Below, one piece after another: positions 6,004 through 36,525 of a stretch of 36,602 bases of DNA. How positions within the stretch are numbered: position 1 is the first letter of the stretch; the number at the start of each line of letters is the position of its first letter. Origin of the DNA: an uncultured Treponema sp. Lineage in GTDB: Bacteria; Spirochaetota; Spirochaetia; Treponematales; Treponemataceae. The stretch is taken from NCBI GenBank assembly GCA_945868875.1, contig CAMBMW010000006.1, forward strand, positions 1-36,602, given 5' to 3'. Under the pieces are notes generated by a model, which did not search any database, was not told the origin of the DNA, and worked only from the letters and a program-made list of their open reading frames with translations. The position numbers and the translations under genes were made by a program.

Positions 6004-7809
6004 TTATTCATCTCCTTTATCCCATTGCACTTCCACAACCCTTGCTCCTTTATTTGGAATGCGGTGATAAATCAAACAATCTGCTTTGTGAATTGTGACA
6101 CCTTTTGAACGTGTTACATAACCTACAATAAGATCGGGATAATGAGGATGACAGCACTGCGCCAGATTGTAAAGTACATTTTTATCGCCTTGTACGAGAA
6201 CTTTACAGTTTTTTACAATCTGCGGCTGATCTTCTTTTTTTCCAGCTTTAGGACGTCGTTTTTGAGGAAATTTTTGTTCATTATTGTGACTTTGAGTGGC
6301 TAGAATTTCGGCTTCCTTTTGGAGCGTAATTTTTTCACTGAAAGTCGGGTCATTTGTCATGAGCCATGAATGAATTTTCTGATGTGCTTTCGAAGTTTTT
6401 ACAAGTTTAAGCTGATTTTCCGTCGGATGAGCCTGAGGATTTGTGATGATTTCGATAATCTGTGTATTCGCAAGAGGTTTTGAAAGTGGAATTATTTTTC
6501 CGTCCGCTTTTGCCGCAATTATTTTTTCACCGATTGCCGAATGAATTGAGTATGCAAAATCTATTGCTGTGGCGCCTGCCGGCAGTTTTCTTACATCCCC
6601 TTTTGGCGTAAAAACATAAATTTCATCGCCTAAAAGTTCATTTTTGAGAGTATTGAAAGTTGCTTCATCAGTGAGAGAATTTTCTTTAAACTGCTGCAAT
6701 TTGTTGAAAATATCAAGTTTATCAGCTTCTACTAAATCGTGGTTTGTCCCCTTTTTATAAAGCCAGTGAGATGCAATTCCGTGTTCTGCCATGTTATGCA
6801 TTTCGTAAGTGCGGATTTGAATTTCAAGAGGTTTTCCTTCACAAATCACAGTCGTGTGCAATGACTGATAACCGTTTGATTTTGGCATTGCAATATAGTC
6901 TTTGAAACGTCCGTCCATAGGTTTCCACAAACCGTGAACAATTCCAACCAAAGTGTAACATTCTGCCTGAGTATTGCACAAAATTCGCAAAGCAAGTAAA
7001 TCATAAAGTTCACTGGCCTCTTTGTTACGTTTGCGCATTTTTTGATAAATCGAATAAAAATGTTTTGCGCGGCTTTTTATCGTCACAGAAATTCCCATTT
7101 TTTCTGCCGATTTATAAATGCTGTTAACAGCCTTTTCAAGATAAGCAGCTCTTTCTTCCTGCGATTGCGAAACAATTTCTTCTATCTGTTTATACACTTT
7201 TGGATTAGTGTATTTCAAACTCATGTCTTCAAATTCATTTTTTTCTTTCTGCATTCCAAGTCGGTCTGCAAGCGGTGCCCAAATTTCAATAACCGCTTCA
7301 GCCAGTGCATGCTGCTGTTCTTTTTCCAGACTTGAAATGTTTCTGATGCGGTCAAGTCTGTCAGAAAGTGTAAGCAAAATTACTCTTGGATCATCACACA
7401 TTGCAAAAAGCATTTTTCTGATGGCGTCAGATTCGTGAAGCGTTTTGGAATTCATAGGAAGTGTGATGATTTTGTTTGTCGTAATTAAAATTTTTGCTAC
7501 ATTTTCACCAAACTCCTGTTTTATCATTTCTGGAGAAACTTCAAATTTATGAATTGGATGCAAGATTCCAGCGACAATTGTATCTGCATCAAGTCTATTT
7601 GCCGCAAGAATATAAGCAACTCTCAAAGGATGAAAATAATAAGGTTTTCCACATGCGCGAACAATTTTTTCTGTCTTTGAAATGAGTAAATCCCATGCTT
7701 TAGTGATTTTTTGTCTGTCAGAATCTGAATAAGAATCGTTCGTTTTAAAAAAATCAGAAAGTAATTCGGCAGGAGTTTTGTCCATTGGTAAATCAAATTC
7801 GTTTCTCAT
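6004..7809 (-). CDS. RelA/SpoT family (p)ppGpp synthetase homolog with degenerate HD hydrolase motif; TGS domain present, ACT domain absent
   Basis: Synthetase region YDLLALRIL...GRFKDYIAMPKSNGYQSLHTTV; TGS region IYVFTPKGDVRKLPAGATAIDFAYSIHSAIG; HD region reads ILHPIHKFE. Confidence 0.93.
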   Translation of the reverse strand: MRNEFDLPMDKTPAELLSDFFKTNDSYSDSDRQKITKAWDLLISKTEKIVRACGKPYYFHPLRVAYILAANRLDADTIVAGILHPIHKFEVSPEMIKQEFGENVAKILITTNKIITLPMNSKTLHESDAIRKMLFAMCDDPRVILLTLSDRLDRIRNISSLEKEQQHALAEAVIEIWAPLADRLGMQKEKNEFEDMSLKYTNPKVYKQIEEIVSQSQEERAAYLEKAVNSIYKSAEKMGISVTIKSRAKHFYSIYQKMRKRNKEASELYDLLALRILCNTQAECYTLVGIVHGLWKPMDGRFKDYIAMPKSNGYQSLHTTVICEGKPLEIQIRTYEMHNMAEHGIASHWLYKKGTNHDLVEADKLDIFNKLQQFKENSLTDEATFNTLKNELLGDEIYVFTPKGDVRKLPAGATAIDFAYSIHSAIGEKIIAAKADGKIIPLSKPLANTQIIEIITNPQAHPTENQLKLVKTSKAHQKIHSWLMTNDPTFSEKITLQKEAEILATQSHNNEQKFPQKRRPKAGKKEDQPQIVKNCKVLVQGDKNVLYNLAQCCHPHYPDLIVGYVTRSKGVTIHKADCLIYHRIPNKGARVVEVQWDKGDE

Positions 7810-29061: not shown

Positions 29062-29277
29062 CTATTTTTGATTTTTAAATTCCTCAGCAACGGCAGACGG
29101 ACCATCCCACCAGAGTTTTGTTGAATCATCATAAAGCATTTTTGCAGTATTAGATTTCATAAAATCAAGAAGGACTTTTTCCTGCGGCTGATTTGTTTCC
29201 AAAGCAAGCTGTTCAACAGCCATTTTTGCAGTCAAATCCATGGCAAACAAAGTTTTATCACTGGGCTTATTATCCAT
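29062..29277 (-). CDS. small protein associated with DUF3990/DUF3791 module
   Basis: 71 aa, 4 nt from the DUF3990 gene in the same operon. Confidence 0.6.
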   Translation of the reverse strand: MDNKPSDKTLFAMDLTAKMAVEQLALETNQPQEKVLLDFMKSNTAKMLYDDSTKLWWDGPSAVAEEFKNQK

Positions 29278-29281
29278 TTTT

Positions 29282-29848
29282 TTACTCCAAAGCTACCTTT
29301 TCGCTTTTTAAGAACTCTAAAGCAGAAATTGCTTTTTCACTTCTAAAACAAAACTGGTCTTTTAAGCGTTCTGGCAGCAATAAACTGATGCACATTTTAT
29401 CAGCCTGCTCACTTCCCATCTTGCCAAAAACATTATCCATATATGCAATAATCGTTGCGTTAGTATCATCATTTGCAATCTTACCGGAAATCACATCATA
29501 ATCCTGCATAGATTTTCGAACCTCAGAAAATGAACCTTCTTTTCTATGAGCAACAATACAATGAAGCCAATCTATATCTGCAGTTTCAAATGCAAAAAAT
29601 TTTAAATCATCAATGTTATCAACTTTGAAAAAAGATATATATGCAAACTTCTCATCATAAGGAATAATTCCTCTAGATTTTGCTTTAGTTGCAGAAATCT
29701 TTGCAAAAGACTTAGCTTGTTCTTTAGAAGTTGTAAGATAAAAGCCTCGTCCAAAATCCTTAAAAACAGCACATTTTTCCAAATCAGGATTTTCTACGAC
29801 ACAATAACTTCCGTGATACAAGACCATTCTATTTTCCAAGTTTTTCAT
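29282..29848 (-). CDS. DUF3990 family protein, ADP-ribosyltransferase-like
   Basis: MVLYHGSYCVVENPDLEKCAVFKDFGRGFYLTTSKEQAKSFA (H...GFYLT pattern), NDDT near C-terminal third. Confidence 0.78.
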   Translation of the reverse strand: MKNLENRMVLYHGSYCVVENPDLEKCAVFKDFGRGFYLTTSKEQAKSFAKISATKAKSRGIIPYDEKFAYISFFKVDNIDDLKFFAFETADIDWLHCIVAHRKEGSFSEVRKSMQDYDVISGKIANDDTNATIIAYMDNVFGKMGSEQADKMCISLLLPERLKDQFCFRSEKAISALEFLKSEKVALE

Positions 29849-30063
29849 AATGATGCCCCTTTAGATTTCAGAAAGCCTTTAACTTCTTCAAAAACAGCTT
29901 CATCACCTTCTACATGAAATATTCCAAATCCCTCGCGGATAAAAGGCAGCACATTGTATGCTGCAAAAATTTGGGCAGCCTGCTTCAAAGTAAGCCCATA
30001 CTTTTCTGCCATCATGCGTAAAAGTCGAATCTGCATAAATAAAATCTGTTCACTTTCGTTCAT
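29845..30063 (-). CDS. DUF3791 family protein
   Basis: MNESEQILFMQIRLLRMMAEKYGLTLKQAAQIFAAYNVLPFIREGFGIFHVEGDEAVFEEVKGFLKSKG; overlaps DUF3990 start by 4 nt; GAGG SD before ATG 30063 (track ORF extends to 30075). Confidence 0.72.
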   Translation of the reverse strand: MNESEQILFMQIRLLRMMAEKYGLTLKQAAQIFAAYNVLPFIREGFGIFHVEGDEAVFEEVKGFLKSKGASL

Positions 30064-30079
30064 TGGTTTCCTCATAAAT

Positions 30080-30196: not shown

Positions 30197-33100
30197 TTAT
30201 TCCCGATAATCATTCTCGTCTTCAAAATTTATAAGATATTGATATTTCTTACCATCGAAACATAATAAGATTCTTTTATTATGTAAGCTACTATTAAAAC
30301 CTGAATCTGGAACATACATCTTTTCCTTATATATTCTAAAAAGCAATCTTTTTTTTGTTTTGATTAGAAATTCTATTAAACTTTTTCTTCGAATAAATAA
30401 ACATATGTGCTCTTCAAACGATTGACAAAAAATTTGTACTTGACCTTTTTTATCTATCCAACCTGAATCACAGTCCCAAGAAAGATTCAAATTTTCAATA
30501 AGTAGTTTTGCAGGTTCCAATAAATTTTCAGAGTCAAAACTACAATCATATTCCCATTCGTGACCACGTAAAAGTTCAAAAGAAGTAGGATATAATTTTA
30601 TTTCATCATCTCTATATTCAATTTCTTTAATGTATTTCCGTTCTTCATATTCATTATAAGCTCTTGATTCTGTATATTCTCCTAAGAATAATCTATAATC
30701 ACGAGTTATATTGTCATAAACATTACCATTAACTAATTCTTTCATTTTCTCATTTGATATTTTTTCTAAATCTGTTAAGTCAATTATTGAAGAAGACAAT
30801 AATATACATGATTCACGATATGGATATTCTGAATCCAATTCTTGAACTTTTACCTTTTGTATAAAATTTAAGGGTATCCATTCTTCACCAGCTTCATCTC
30901 TTATATTTTGTATTAAAACTTCTTCCTCAAAAAAATCTTCTTCATCAGTAATCCACTCCTTCGGATCTTTTTCCATATTTATTACAATATCTTCACTGTA
31001 AATTTTTGGATACTTATTCTTTATAGAAAATCTTTGATCAGACAAATCTATATCACGCAAAGGAATGCTGTACAAGAGAGGATATAATGATTCTTCTTCA
31101 TCATCATATTTTATTGGTTTCAATTTACAAGTATTACTTAATAATCCAATTAATCTATGTAATAAAATCCAATAATATTTCTTTGAAAGTCTTTCAATAT
31201 AAATAGGTTTCCCTCGTCCACTTCCATAAGTTCCTCTTAAATAATTATCAAAATGATAAGCTCTTTTATCTTGTCCTGGGTAACCCAATTCATATAAACA
31301 AACTACAAACCACTTATAGATATCATCAATTGATATGTTTGCGGCTTCTAAATCAAATATATCGATTTTATTTTTCAATATATATCTTTGAAAATCCGTA
31401 TACCAATGTCCAACAAAATTTATATCAGAATCATTAAATGGTTCTTCTTTTATTAAATCGCAAAATAACGATTCTTCAACTTTTTCAAATTTAAGTGATG
31501 ATGTAATATTTATTACTTTATTATACTCATTCTTTGACAAAAATGTTGGATTGTATAAATAAGCCAATTCAATTATCAATCTATGCGAATCATGAATAAT
31601 AATATTTGAATATTGCTCAAAGAATTTATTGTCAATTATATACTTTGCGAAATTCTCAATATTAGTTTTATTCTTTGATAATAAGAAACTAGAATAGATT
31701 GCCTGAATTAATCTCTCAATAATATAATCATCATCCACATTTCTGAAAAACTCATAAACTCTTTTGCATAAAACTGGACAAGACCATAAAATTCTAGTCA
31801 ACGCTTTACTGCTTTGATCTCTAACTCTTCTATCAGAAGATGAACAAAACCAACACAAGATGATACACCATAAAAATAGAGCTTCTTCTGTATAATTAGT
31901 AAGATCTGAAAAACAGGCTCTATTTATAAGTTGCCATGCAGAGTTTTTTGATGAATAATCTGATATTAAATAATATACAAAAAAAGCATCTCTTTCACAC
32001 ATTGAATTTTCAGATAATAAATCACTAACAAACATAGAATTAAGTTGATTATTTGGAGTAACAGACATAGATATCAAAGAACTCATTACTTTCAGAGAAT
32101 AATCATTTGAGGATAATAATTTTCTAACATAAAAAATTGTTTTTCTTGTTATCGAATTAGGACTACGCCAACAAAGCCCATTTATAAATGTGTCAGAAAA
32201 AACTTTAGTTGATGAATAATCTAATATTTCAACATATTGATTTATTTCAGGTAACAATATGGACAACATTTCTATTATAGACGGATTCGTTTCTGTAAAT
32301 TCTACATTTTTTAGATATTCTTCATAACCAGATGATATAATACTTTCTGCAATATAATAATCTGTCAATTTGTCATAGGAAAATCTAATTCTAATTTGAT
32401 TTTGAAATTTCGTTTTTGTTATAATAGATTCTTTTTCCAATACATTCATCAATGATTTTGAAAATGACTCTGTTGAATAAATAGAAGCTAAAATTTGCTT
32501 AAAATCTGTATATAATAAAGAGCGAGATTTATTTTCTAACATTTTATTGGTAATAAGCAAAAATACTTTTTCCAAAATATTATCTTCTTCATCTATATCA
32601 CATTTTTTTGATATCTTCCTATTTTTCATTTTTGTAAAATTTTTAAATATATTTAATAATCCAATCTGACCTTTAGGGAAAAATTTATCTTTACTATTTG
32701 AAATAGTTTCACAAAGCAAATGCAGAAATAAAGGATTGCCAAATTCTGAATTAAACAAAGGATATGACGGCGGAATTATTTTATAATACTCACAAAATGA
32801 ATTTATCGCTAAATATTCATTTCCAATAAAACCATTGTGTTTAAAAATAAACAAATCTGAAAACTCATCTTCAAATTCACTTATAAAAGTGTCTCTACAA
32901 GAAATGCATAATTTCAAATTAGGATAATATAAAATTTCTTGTATTAGAATAGGAATCCATATATGCCATTTATTTATATCAAAACTCTCATTAATTGCAT
33001 CAATAAATATAATTCCTATAGATTTTTTTGATTCTGCATTTATAGAGAAAATTTGAAATAATTCTTCTTTTGAAATTTCGTTTGAAAAACCTAATTTATC

Positions 33101-34285
33101 TCGAAAAACAATCCAAGGTTCTTGTGTATAAAAATCTTCTCCAAAAAATACAAAATCTGTGTTTAAGGAATTATTTCTCATATAGTCAACAATACTATGA
33201 GTTTTACCTATACCAGCAGGACCTGTTATTATCAAAGTCTTAGAGCAATAAGCTTTTATATTTTCACTATTAAGAAATTCTTTTGAATCATATATGTCTT
33301 TTTTTAAATCTCGAATTTCATCCAATAATGCACATGGGAATTCACACATATATTCAGCCATGAATTGTCTAAAATTTGGACTATCATGAAATTTTTCACC
33401 ATATTTTTTTTCTAATTCTGAAAGTGCATTCTTTTCTTCTGCGTAAATATAATCCAAAAAGGTATCAATAATTTGATTTATTTCAATTAATATATTTTCA
33501 TCCTTTTTGTGAAAAAGGATTTTCATTCGAGCTAAGATAAGCTCGATACTTTTTTTAATACTTAAATAAAACTCTTGATTACTTTCTTTTAGAGTATAAC
33601 TATTTAAATATTTTGACAGAGATTCCAAAATATTTTTGTAATCTGAATTTAATACCTCTTTTTCTGAAAAATAGTTTAAAACTTTATATAAAGGAACCTC
33701 AATATTTAATTCAGGTGTATATCTTTTACCAGCTTGAGCAATTATTTCATCTGTATATCTAAGATAACTTTCATAAGAAAGACAATTTATATCAAACCAA
33801 TAAGTATACAAACCACCAGAATTATCATGTTTATGTAATAAATCAGATAGTACTGTCGAATTCCATAAAATTATTTTTATAGAATAACTGTTTTCATTTT
33901 TTGTTTTCCATTCTTCAAATTTTTCAGTTTGACTTTTACCTCGATGACCGTTTGATACTTTTCCTGTTAAATTAAACGGAATTGAAATATAATATTGTTT
34001 TAGATTTGGATGATTCGCAAGAGCGGTAGTAAGAGAATCTGATAATTGGGATAGTTCTGATGTCCCAAATGAATTATTTTCCCAATACTTAGACTGTAGT
34101 CCAACTTCAGACAAATCTTCGTTTATATAAACAGCTTCAACACCACCATCGCCACCATCACCTCTATATCTTTGAAAGTTTCTTTCAGCTGAATAGAGTT
34201 CTCTACGGAACAATTGACATGATAATTCTTCGAAACTATCTCGTTTTCCTTTTAATCCCGATTTTATATCATAAAAATTTTCCAT
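30197..34285 (-). CDS. STAND NTPase with N-terminal PD-(D/E)XK (Mrr-like) nuclease domain, Avs-like antiphage protein
   Basis: 1362 aa; nuclease region FEELSCQLFRRE...RYRGDGGDGGVEAVY...VGLQSKYW; Walker A ITGPAGIGKTHS; Walker B IGIIFIDAINES; sensor LKLCISCRD; GNPLFLHLL (GxP); long helical C-terminus. Confidence 0.82.
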   Translation of the reverse strand: MENFYDIKSGLKGKRDSFEELSCQLFRRELYSAERNFQRYRGDGGDGGVEAVYINEDLSEVGLQSKYWENNSFGTSELSQLSDSLTTALANHPNLKQYYISIPFNLTGKVSNGHRGKSQTEKFEEWKTKNENSYSIKIILWNSTVLSDLLHKHDNSGGLYTYWFDINCLSYESYLRYTDEIIAQAGKRYTPELNIEVPLYKVLNYFSEKEVLNSDYKNILESLSKYLNSYTLKESNQEFYLSIKKSIELILARMKILFHKKDENILIEINQIIDTFLDYIYAEEKNALSELEKKYGEKFHDSPNFRQFMAEYMCEFPCALLDEIRDLKKDIYDSKEFLNSENIKAYCSKTLIITGPAGIGKTHSIVDYMRNNSLNTDFVFFGEDFYTQEPWIVFRDKLGFSNEISKEELFQIFSINAESKKSIGIIFIDAINESFDINKWHIWIPILIQEILYYPNLKLCISCRDTFISEFEDEFSDLFIFKHNGFIGNEYLAINSFCEYYKIIPPSYPLFNSEFGNPLFLHLLCETISNSKDKFFPKGQIGLLNIFKNFTKMKNRKISKKCDIDEEDNILEKVFLLITNKMLENKSRSLLYTDFKQILASIYSTESFSKSLMNVLEKESIITKTKFQNQIRIRFSYDKLTDYYIAESIISSGYEEYLKNVEFTETNPSIIEMLSILLPEINQYVEILDYSSTKVFSDTFINGLCWRSPNSITRKTIFYVRKLLSSNDYSLKVMSSLISMSVTPNNQLNSMFVSDLLSENSMCERDAFFVYYLISDYSSKNSAWQLINRACFSDLTNYTEEALFLWCIILCWFCSSSDRRVRDQSSKALTRILWSCPVLCKRVYEFFRNVDDDYIIERLIQAIYSSFLLSKNKTNIENFAKYIIDNKFFEQYSNIIIHDSHRLIIELAYLYNPTFLSKNEYNKVINITSSLKFEKVEESLFCDLIKEEPFNDSDINFVGHWYTDFQRYILKNKIDIFDLEAANISIDDIYKWFVVCLYELGYPGQDKRAYHFDNYLRGTYGSGRGKPIYIERLSKKYYWILLHRLIGLLSNTCKLKPIKYDDEEESLYPLLYSIPLRDIDLSDQRFSIKNKYPKIYSEDIVINMEKDPKEWITDEEDFFEEEVLIQNIRDEAGEEWIPLNFIQKVKVQELDSEYPYRESCILLSSSIIDLTDLEKISNEKMKELVNGNVYDNITRDYRLFLGEYTESRAYNEYEERKYIKEIEYRDDEIKLYPTSFELLRGHEWEYDCSFDSENLLEPAKLLIENLNLSWDCDSGWIDKKGQVQIFCQSFEEHICLFIRRKSLIEFLIKTKKRLLFRIYKEKMYVPDSGFNSSLHNKRILLCFDGKKYQYLINFEDENDYRE

Positions 34286-34297
34286 CTAATTATCCTT

Positions 34298-35452
34298 TTA
34301 CATTCCGCTTATGCAAGAAATTACCAGTTGCCTAAAAGATTGCAATTGTATAATCTCTTCCAAATTATTTGAAATACAAGTGAAAGTTTTTCTCAAAAAA
34401 TCATTGTATCCTTTCATAATCGAATCTTCAAAAAATGGAAGATCCAAATTCTGAATATTTTTCAAAGGTAACTTTGCTTGAACAGCTCCTACTGTTGCTT
34501 GTAAAATTGCAGATTGTCCAGCCTTAGTTCTTAAATAAATAAGAACATATTCTGGAATAAGATTTTTCATCTTTGTAAGTTTTACACAATTTTCTGTAAG
34601 ATTTGCTTTATCAAGCGATTTATGAACTAGCACGGTAAGTCCAATTGTACCTACAATCGAAATCAATAAATCGTTAGTTTCTGTTATATATCTTGCAATT
34701 TCTTTTTGGGTTTCATCATCAACATATAGAAATTCATTGTTCAGCATAACAAAACAATTCTCTTTTATATCACGGATTCTTATATACGGATGTGAATTCC
34801 TGTTTTCTATTAAGTATGAATCTAATGGTAATCTCTTGCCACCTTTTACTTCACAAATTGATTCAATCTTAATACTTTTCTTTTCAAGAGACTCATTATC
34901 AAGCATATTCTCAAATTTGAGAATTGCCGTCTTTTCTAGATTTTCATTTATCTTCTGCTTAAGCTGGATGCGTTTTGTGATGGCTTTGTAGGTGTTTACG
35001 ATTTTTTCTTGTTCTTTTAGGTCGGGAACTGGAAGTTCTATTTCGCAGATATCATTCCATGTAATTCCGCCGCGAACACTTCCATCAGTTCTAAACCAGC
35101 AGTTTCTATCAAAATCATTTCGCTTAAAAATCAGCATCAAGAAATCTGGCAAAACTTTATTTTCATCTTTTACCCTAAACATAAAATATGCAGGAGAAAC
35201 AATTGCTGGAATATCTTTCTTGTACAAAGAAACAGGCAATCGTTCATCACGACCAACATGCATCGGATTACAGGCAAATGTATTCATCCTGAGAAGTTTG
35301 TAATTGCTTAAATCAGTTCCAATTGTATTTGCAACTGATGGCATAAATTCTTTATCAATACTTATTCCAAGCACTTCCGAACTTTCAAGAGCTTTATTTC
35401 GTTCATCAATGAGTTCTACAATTTCTCCAAGCTTTCTATAATTCGCACTCAT
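34298..35452 (-). CDS. hsdS: type I restriction-modification specificity subunit S
   Basis: Two TRD-like halves, each followed by a helical linker (IELPVPDLKEQEKIVNTYKAITKRIQLKQKINENLEKTA); IVGTIGLTVLVHKSLDKANLTENCVKL. Confidence 0.9.
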   Translation of the reverse strand: MSANYRKLGEIVELIDERNKALESSEVLGISIDKEFMPSVANTIGTDLSNYKLLRMNTFACNPMHVGRDERLPVSLYKKDIPAIVSPAYFMFRVKDENKVLPDFLMLIFKRNDFDRNCWFRTDGSVRGGITWNDICEIELPVPDLKEQEKIVNTYKAITKRIQLKQKINENLEKTAILKFENMLDNESLEKKSIKIESICEVKGGKRLPLDSYLIENRNSHPYIRIRDIKENCFVMLNNEFLYVDDETQKEIARYITETNDLLISIVGTIGLTVLVHKSLDKANLTENCVKLTKMKNLIPEYVLIYLRTKAGQSAILQATVGAVQAKLPLKNIQNLDLPFFEDSIMKGYNDFLRKTFTCISNNLEEIIQLQSFRQLVISCISGM

Positions 35453-36525
35453 TTTAAAATCTCCCAGTGTCCGCCTTTTGGGGAGCCTTCGCGTTTTATA
35501 AATCCTTTTTCAACAAGTGAAGCAAGCTGTTTTTCTACTGCTCGGCTTGTTATGCCGATTTTTTCTGAAAGCTTTTTGGCAGAGAGTTTTGGATTTTCTT
35601 TTAAAAGTTCTAGAATTATCTCCGAACTTTTTTGATTATCTCCGAACTTTTTCTCCGAACTTATAGCTTTTTCTCCGAACTTTTTGATGTATTCATCATA
35701 ATCAATATGGGTGTAACGGTTTTTAAGCTCGTTGTTTTCGCCTAAAATAAGGTTTCGGAAAAAGCGTTCCAGAAAGACAGGATTTTCTTCTATTCCTTCT
35801 TTAAGATTTTTGTAATTGGCACGCACAAGGGCATTTCTAAAATACCAGCTGTTTTGGGCAAAAATATCATTATCAACTTTGTAGCCCATTGAACGAAGAT
35901 ACTTGATTGTAAAAACGGCAGTTGTACGAGTATTTCCTTCTCCAAATGCGTGAATCTGCCAGAGCCTTGAAACAAAGAAAGTAATATGCTTTATGATTTC
36001 ATCTGTAGAAAGCCCTTTATACTTAAAATTACGTTCCATCTCAAAATCGTAATCAAGAGCAGCCTTAAGTTCAAAAGAAGCTCCGTACATTACTGTATCG
36101 CCATTTAATACCCATTCTTTTTTTGTAATATCGTAATCGCGGATTTTACCGGCAAACTTAAAGATTCCTTCAAAAAGTCTTTTGTGAATTGCAATCAGAT
36201 GAGAAGGACTAAAATTAAAAGATGGCTCGCTGAGAATCTGTGCAATACGGCTGGAAACTTTATCGGCCTCCTCAGTTCTTTCATCATCCTGAGTTCGGGC
36301 TGTACGGCTTTCATAATAAGAATCAATCAGTCTTTTTGCTTCATCAAAAGAAAGCTCGCCTTCTATATTCTTTTTGGCTGTTTCATACAAATATGAAGAA
36401 GGCTTAAGACCATCAACCTGCTGCAAACCAATAGCTGTAGACCAGGCAAGAGTTTTGTCTTTTTTGCTTGCATCTGTATGGCGGATGTATTCTTCAAAAT
36501 CAATTTCGTACGGATTCTTTTCCAC
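35449..36525 (-). CDS. Fic family protein with C-terminal winged helix domain
   Basis: Fic core IHAFGEGNTRTTAVF; Fic_N region LIAIHKRLFEGIFKFAGKIRDYDI; C-terminal wHTH LSAKKLSEKIGITSRAVEKQLASLVEKGFIKREG; GTG start with AGAGGAT SD; 4-nt overlap with hsdS. Confidence 0.9.
   Translation of the reverse strand: MEKNPYEIDFEEYIRHTDASKKDKTLAWSTAIGLQQVDGLKPSSYLYETAKKNIEGELSFDEAKRLIDSYYESRTARTQDDERTEEADKVSSRIAQILSEPSFNFSPSHLIAIHKRLFEGIFKFAGKIRDYDITKKEWVLNGDTVMYGASFELKAALDYDFEMERNFKYKGLSTDEIIKHITFFVSRLWQIHAFGEGNTRTTAVFTIKYLRSMGYKVDNDIFAQNSWYFRNALVRANYKNLKEGIEENPVFLERFFRNLILGENNELKNRYTHIDYDEYIKKFGEKAISSEKKFGDNQKSSEIILELLKENPKLSAKKLSEKIGITSRAVEKQLASLVEKGFIKREGSPKGGHWEILK

Follow-up and report, generated by a model that had tools for sequence, protein, structure and literature searches.

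An autonomous-looking Avs2 with a predicted Mrr-like nuclease domain occupies the hsdS-hsdR gap of a Treponema type I restriction operon

Type I restriction-modification (RM) operons can carry other defence genes, and a gene found inside one raises the question of whether it serves the restriction enzyme or is only lodged there. The window analysed here, a stretch of 36,602 nucleotides from an uncultured Treponema sp. (GCA_945868875.1, contig CAMBMW010000006.1), holds such a gene between hsdS and hsdR. An earlier note, made from the letters alone, had read it as an Avs-like sensor-nuclease wired into the operon. We asked which Avs protein it encodes, what its domains may do, and whether that wiring exists. 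Our reading, to which we give a probability of about 80%, is an autonomous Avs2 with a Mrr-like nuclease effector, carried as cargo in the hsdS-hsdR slot and acting by terminase-triggered abortive infection.

The open reading frame is intact: it runs from an ATG through 1362 codons with zero internal stops and occupies exactly 30197-34285 on the minus strand. The strand, absent from the earlier note, is the same as that of hsdS, the DUF3990 gene and hsdR. Every motif quoted before could be located in the translation: GDGGDGGVE...LQSKYW at residues 42-68, GPAGIGKT at 355-362, IIFIDAINES at 425-434, CISCRD at 460-465 and GNPLFL at 516-521. The hsdS stop codon occupies 34298-34300 and avs2 begins with its ATG at 34285, which confirms the 12-nt gap reported earlier; the AAGGAT Shine-Dalgarno sequence stands ahead of the start. 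Judged by spacing alone, avs2 would be co-transcribed with hsdS; a promoter scan was uninformative in this AT-rich stretch (42 matches vs 39.2 +/- 5.9 in shuffles). In order of transcription, all on one strand, the operon reads as follows.

35449..36525, minus strand: Fic domain and winged-helix protein, 358 aa, PADLOC candidate PDC-S72; 4-nt overlap with the hsdS start
34298..35452, minus strand: hsdS, type I specificity subunit, directly upstream of avs2; Pfam Methylase_S E 5.6e-19, PADLOC Specificity_I
30197..34285, minus strand: avs2, 1362-aa AVAST type 2 protein (putative nuclease, STAND NTPase, C-terminal sensor)
29845..30075, minus strand: DUF3791 small protein, first gene of a PDC-M13-type cassette; Pfam DUF3791 E 3.3e-10, PADLOC PDC-M13
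29282..29848, minus strand: DUF3990 protein, PDC-M13A/B, weakly similar to ADP-ribosyltransferases
29062..29277, minus strand: 71-aa protein, third PDC-M13-type gene; PADLOC PDC-M13C/B E 1.3e-7, conserved in L003, L096 and L100
25918..29049, minus strand: hsdR, type I restriction subunit, last gene of the operon; NCBIfam TIGR00348 493.9 bits, over the cut-off, PADLOC REase_I E 0

The PDC-M13 candidate cassette is thus complete at 29062-30075, with its three genes in tandem, and may be a toxin-antitoxin-like module, given the weak ADP-ribosyltransferase similarity of DUF3990. It is separated from avs2 by a 121-nt spacer, of which no repeat copies were found in the source genome. Both hsdS and hsdR are present, and the contig stops at 36602. 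In the relatives G535, G538 and G081, hsdM lies upstream; a matching HsdM family was not found in the source assembly, which is 85% complete. Only one N6_Mtase-type HsdM there (C7) matched strongly; it was rejected as the partner, being 25% identical to the expected HsdM. The contig end (36540-36602) is a short palindromic element, copies of which lie near hsdS in G508 and G081 at 77-97% identity; the element may explain both the assembly break at this point and the missing hsdM. The gene for the Fic and winged-helix protein has its own pattern: G535 and G538 carry homologs between hsdM and hsdS, which marks a second place for cargo in the operon, and a Fic fragment 97.5% identical to it precedes a different hsdS in G529.

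Six PADLOC models match the avs2 protein, all of them Avs2 (best E 8.5e-211), and PADLOC models of other families, including the other Avs types, gave zero matches. A phmmer search with the window protein retrieved the solved Avs2 9o4e at E 2.8e-53; with these two E values, chance is excluded for the identity. The gene product is Avs2 (AVAST type 2). The NCBIfam Avs2 model (NF041813) matches at E 2e-146 with 489.8 bits, below its equivalog cut-off of 1000, a threshold set for annotating close E. coli-type Avs2; the PADLOC profiles accept the protein. We therefore regard it as a divergent Avs2 and not as an equivalog of E. coli Avs2. A profile built from the window protein and six full-length homologs aligns to residues 164-1469 of 9o4e (E 9.2e-262), showing that the STAND core and the sensor are both homologous to those of 9o4e. 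The nuclease-STAND-sensor architecture proposed earlier is thereby upheld and sharpened to Avs2. The HMM and structure search that the earlier note had suggested gave Avs2 with the sequence models, and Avs4 (8dgf) and Avs3 (8dgc) with models of the two halves of the protein. Three regions were delimited.

33971..34285, minus strand: predicted Mrr-like PD-(D/E)XK nuclease domain, ~residues 1-105; candidate active site E19, D46, E50, Q64, K66
32666..33268, minus strand: STAND NTPase core, ~residues 340-540; Walker A GPAGIGKT 355-362, Walker B IIFIDA with D429, R464 and GNPLFL 516-521, in invariant columns
30200..32365, minus strand: sensor, helical-repeat and beta-rich, ~residues 641-1362, aligned to the whole C-terminus of 9o4e

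The N-terminus is well supported as a Mrr-like PD-(D/E)XK domain with putative nuclease activity. In the alignments, F18-E19..D46..E50..Q64-x-K66 is invariant in all sequences with this domain (9/9), which include the window protein and those of Burkholderia, Moraxella, Haloplanus, Rhodothermus, G191 from the same phylum, a Fibrobacter MAG and a Treponema relative. Pfam Mrr_cat matches residues 16-87 at E 0.0013, slightly under its cut-off, and the predicted model runs H14-29 E36-39 E51-54 E60-65 H75-91 E95-101, which is the order of the PD-(D/E)XK core topology. The assignment draws on these three lines together, and the signature noted from the letters holds up in both the catalytic residues and the modelled core. 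Neither residues 1-163 of 9o4e nor the N-terminal part of the closely related L053 aligned in sequence with the window protein. Effector exchange is known among Avs proteins.

Walker A and Walker B are intact, and K361 of Walker A, D429 and R464 are invariant across the aligned homologs. A structure model of residues 1-640 (A2), covering the nuclease, linker and STAND core, has Avs4 8dgf as its top match (E 1.5e-8). For the model of residues 560-1362 (A3), the two PDB matches below E 1e-3 are both chains of the Avs3-terminase structure (8dgc_A/B, E 5e-7 and 3e-6). These models are of medium confidence (pLDDT ~73-75, low TM-scores), so that the fold match supports the class of the sensor and not its ligand.

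Avs1-3 detect the phage large terminase subunit and Avs1-4 act by a nuclease; EcAvs2 senses through its C-terminus and undergoes ATP-dependent oligomerisation (PMC12724215; PMC12931631). By analogy, the C-terminal sensor of the window protein would bind a conserved protein that the phage makes during infection, the large terminase subunit being the most probable one. Once bound, the sensor would let the STAND NTPase load ATP and oligomerise, whereupon the clustered nuclease domains would become active and cut DNA, and the infection would be aborted with Avs2 working alone. The ligand is the part of this scheme most open to revision. The sensor shares only ~21-23% identity with that of the studied E. 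coli-type Avs2 and the protein scores 490 bits against a cut-off of 1000, so it may have another ligand; a Klebsiella Avs2 that has been studied binds the phage protein Ksap1 as well (PMC12724215). A sensor changed to read a phage protein other than terminase nevertheless seems unlikely to us, since the sole significant fold match of the C-terminal half is Avs3 bound to terminase, and since R1032, K1035, K1036, Y1037 and W1111 are invariant and common to distant Avs2 proteins.

We then considered the position of avs2 in the operon. Eight other genomes of the genus have HsdR orthologs 92-97% identical to that of the window. The hsdS-hsdR gap is filled in every stretch that has both genes, and its contents differ among relatives of the same genus, Avs2 occurring in the window alone among them. 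The flanks are ~90% identical, whereas the cargo varies:

G063: AAA_13/PrrC-like PDC-S06 and Fic PDC-S04
G535: KAP NTPase
G508: Fic
G405: three genes, with no family match over the cut-off, and PDC-M13
G538: two genes and Fic
G501: PIN_12, a gene very similar to the KAP NTPase of G535, and PDC-M13
G081: AAA-DUF4143
G033 (hsdR 55% identical): PDC-S06
G529: a 717-aa protein

The junctions are sharp. Against G405, the DNA match ends at operon-oriented base 2314, which is 4 nt short of the avs2 ATG, and resumes at 6540, within the DUF3791 gene. In the comparison with G063 the match likewise ends at operon-oriented base 2314 and resumes at 7554, which is the hsdR ATG. The simplest reading of such junctions would be homologous replacement through conserved flanks. 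Defence cassettes probably swap by recombination at the conserved 3' end of hsdS and in hsdR (or PDC-M13) sequences. The uncharacterised cargo at L093:9006-12886, L094, L100, L097, L102 and L106 comprises candidate defence genes, among them 793/794-aa KAP-like membrane NTPases and the 717-aa protein, which lacks any Pfam or PADLOC match.

The closest relative of the window gene lies in Treponema sp. RGIG9108 (L003, on the same 427,628-base contig as G402), where Avs2 is intact and 65% identical over its full length. Ahead of it stands a stub, IISRISGM* (8 codons of the hsdS end), with no further hsdS; downstream follow the PDC-M13 genes and then a frameshifted, internally deleted hsdR. Between the window and L003, dN/dS for avs2 is 0.22 (NG86, dS 1.16), an average that cannot date constraint to after the loss of the RM system, and 0.13 for the nuclease part. 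The open frame of 1364 codons beside ruined neighbours suggests continued selection on the L003 gene. There Avs2 is apparently independent of the host operon.

The shared arrangement in the window and L003 could also mean that Avs2 and PDC-M13 form one system, with PDC-M13 as regulator or second effector. The four genes avs2, DUF3791, DUF3990 and the 71-aa gene are kept in both loci, and dN/dS is low for all (4/4). However, the hsd operons of both G405 and G501 have PDC-M13 beside other cargo and without Avs2, the cassette is absent from other Avs2 loci, and the spacer sets it apart from avs2; we hold a joint system to be quite improbable.

Outside Treponema, two E. coli chromosomes carry avs2 at the end of a lambda-like prophage, with no adjoining hsd genes, and none were found next to Avs2 at the plasmid and archaeal loci examined either. 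In L003 and at the plasmid and E. coli loci, genomic context thus presents Avs2 as a single-gene system. This bears on the possibility that Avs2 guards the type I enzyme as PrrC does for EcoprrI, restrained by the RM complex and released when a phage inhibits it. PrrC, whose gene lies within a type IC operon, stays in the complex until T4 Stp frees it (PMC3874165; PMC12707154). A PrrC-related AAA_13 protein does occupy the same slot in G063, and avs2 starts just behind hsdS. As for guardians of this kind, embedding in a type I RM operon is found here, but dependence on the RM complex is not: Avs2 stays intact in L003 though the RM genes are broken, it occurs elsewhere without RM genes, and its C-terminus matches phage-protein sensors and no RM-binding domain. 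Such a guardian role is very improbable. Looser coupling, with Avs2 held off by the RM enzyme or armed when restriction is inhibited, would put restriction first and Avs2 suicide second, and we find it scarcely credible.

The wiring into a type I RM operon claimed earlier therefore stands as to position inside the operon and is not supported as to function. Functional wiring was rejected because relatives with 72-97% identical hsdR hold other genes in the slot, because the L003 Avs2 outlives its RM system, and because plasmid and E. coli prophage Avs2 lack adjoining hsd genes. By context, Avs2 acts alone, embedded as cargo between hsdS and hsdR, and it sits there because the gap in the Treponema-type hsd operon is a cargo slot.

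Among 393 genomes of the phylum, the matches of clear Avs2 strength were four, namely the window, L003, G407 and G191. The G407 gene is split and lies beside transposases. That of G191 is a contig-end fragment (L044, G191:C218, 5244-9283) with a 4-nt overlap with a type IIG/DrmMI-like methyltransferase gene; Avs2 is thus embedded in modification operons in two unrelated settings. The methyltransferase gene itself lies downstream of a DpdE/DrmD-like helicase. Phylum matches with low scores (E 1e-6 to 1e-3) extend over ~70-190 aa around the STAND region, and we left them out of the Avs2 count. A protein-level search of 148 genomes for relatives returned the window alone. In viral contigs, a close-sequence scan gave zero matches and an alignment-based scan nine distant relatives; phage records gave weak partial matches only. 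At L004 (6256-8948), two genes of 584 and 257 aa upstream of a Fibrobacter Avs2 fragment resemble, by eye, restriction endonucleases of the Mrr type.

Avs2 has been described before, and so has embedding in the hsdS-hsdR gap; the window is a fresh case of both and does not represent a new kind of system. What it contributes is a divergent Avs2 with a nuclease domain, from a host of Treponema type, together with a clean case of an exchangeable cargo slot, with conserved flanks, sharp junctions and different defence genes in each relative, which holds many interchangeable defence genes, Avs2 being one of them. In L003 the cargo has outlasted the restriction system, and this relic offers a natural test of whether defence genes that are embedded depend on their host operon.

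Compared with E. coli-type Avs2 (9o4e; PADLOC PDLC02161-02166; NF041813), the alignment runs from end to end over the STAND core and the whole C-terminal sensor; both are single-gene systems and both keep the Walker and STAND residues. The window protein differs in being ~120 aa shorter, in falling below the equivalog cut-off and in carrying the Mrr-like PD-(D/E)XK N-terminus, a predicted nuclease, in place of the N-terminal domain of 9o4e and L053. Avs3 and Avs4 (8dgc, 8dgf) are the best structural matches of its two half-models, but their PADLOC sequence models do not match it. Plasmid Avs2 proteins (Burkholderia glumae NZ_CP100265, Haloplanus HW8-1, Moraxella) share its nuclease-to-C-terminus layout and active-site residues at 24-32% identity; unlike the window gene, they stand alone, without adjacent hsd genes. 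The Avs2 of RGIG9108 has the same downstream PDC-M13 genes and an hsdR remnant, but its hsdS is cut to a stub and its hsdR is broken. The embedding of one defence system in another is termed 'guilt-by-embedding' (Payne et al. 2024, as cited in PMC12255303 and PMC12988326). In the RRDM island of EPEC, DarTG2 likewise lies as a separate defence module between hsdS and hsdR of a type I RM operon, a gap called a potential hotspot (PMC12255303), and PrrC, the classic example of an embedded gene, is a separate module inside such an operon in EcoprrI (PMC3874165). The window differs from both cases in its cargo, Avs2 with PDC-M13, for which no sign of PrrC-like control by the RM complex was found.
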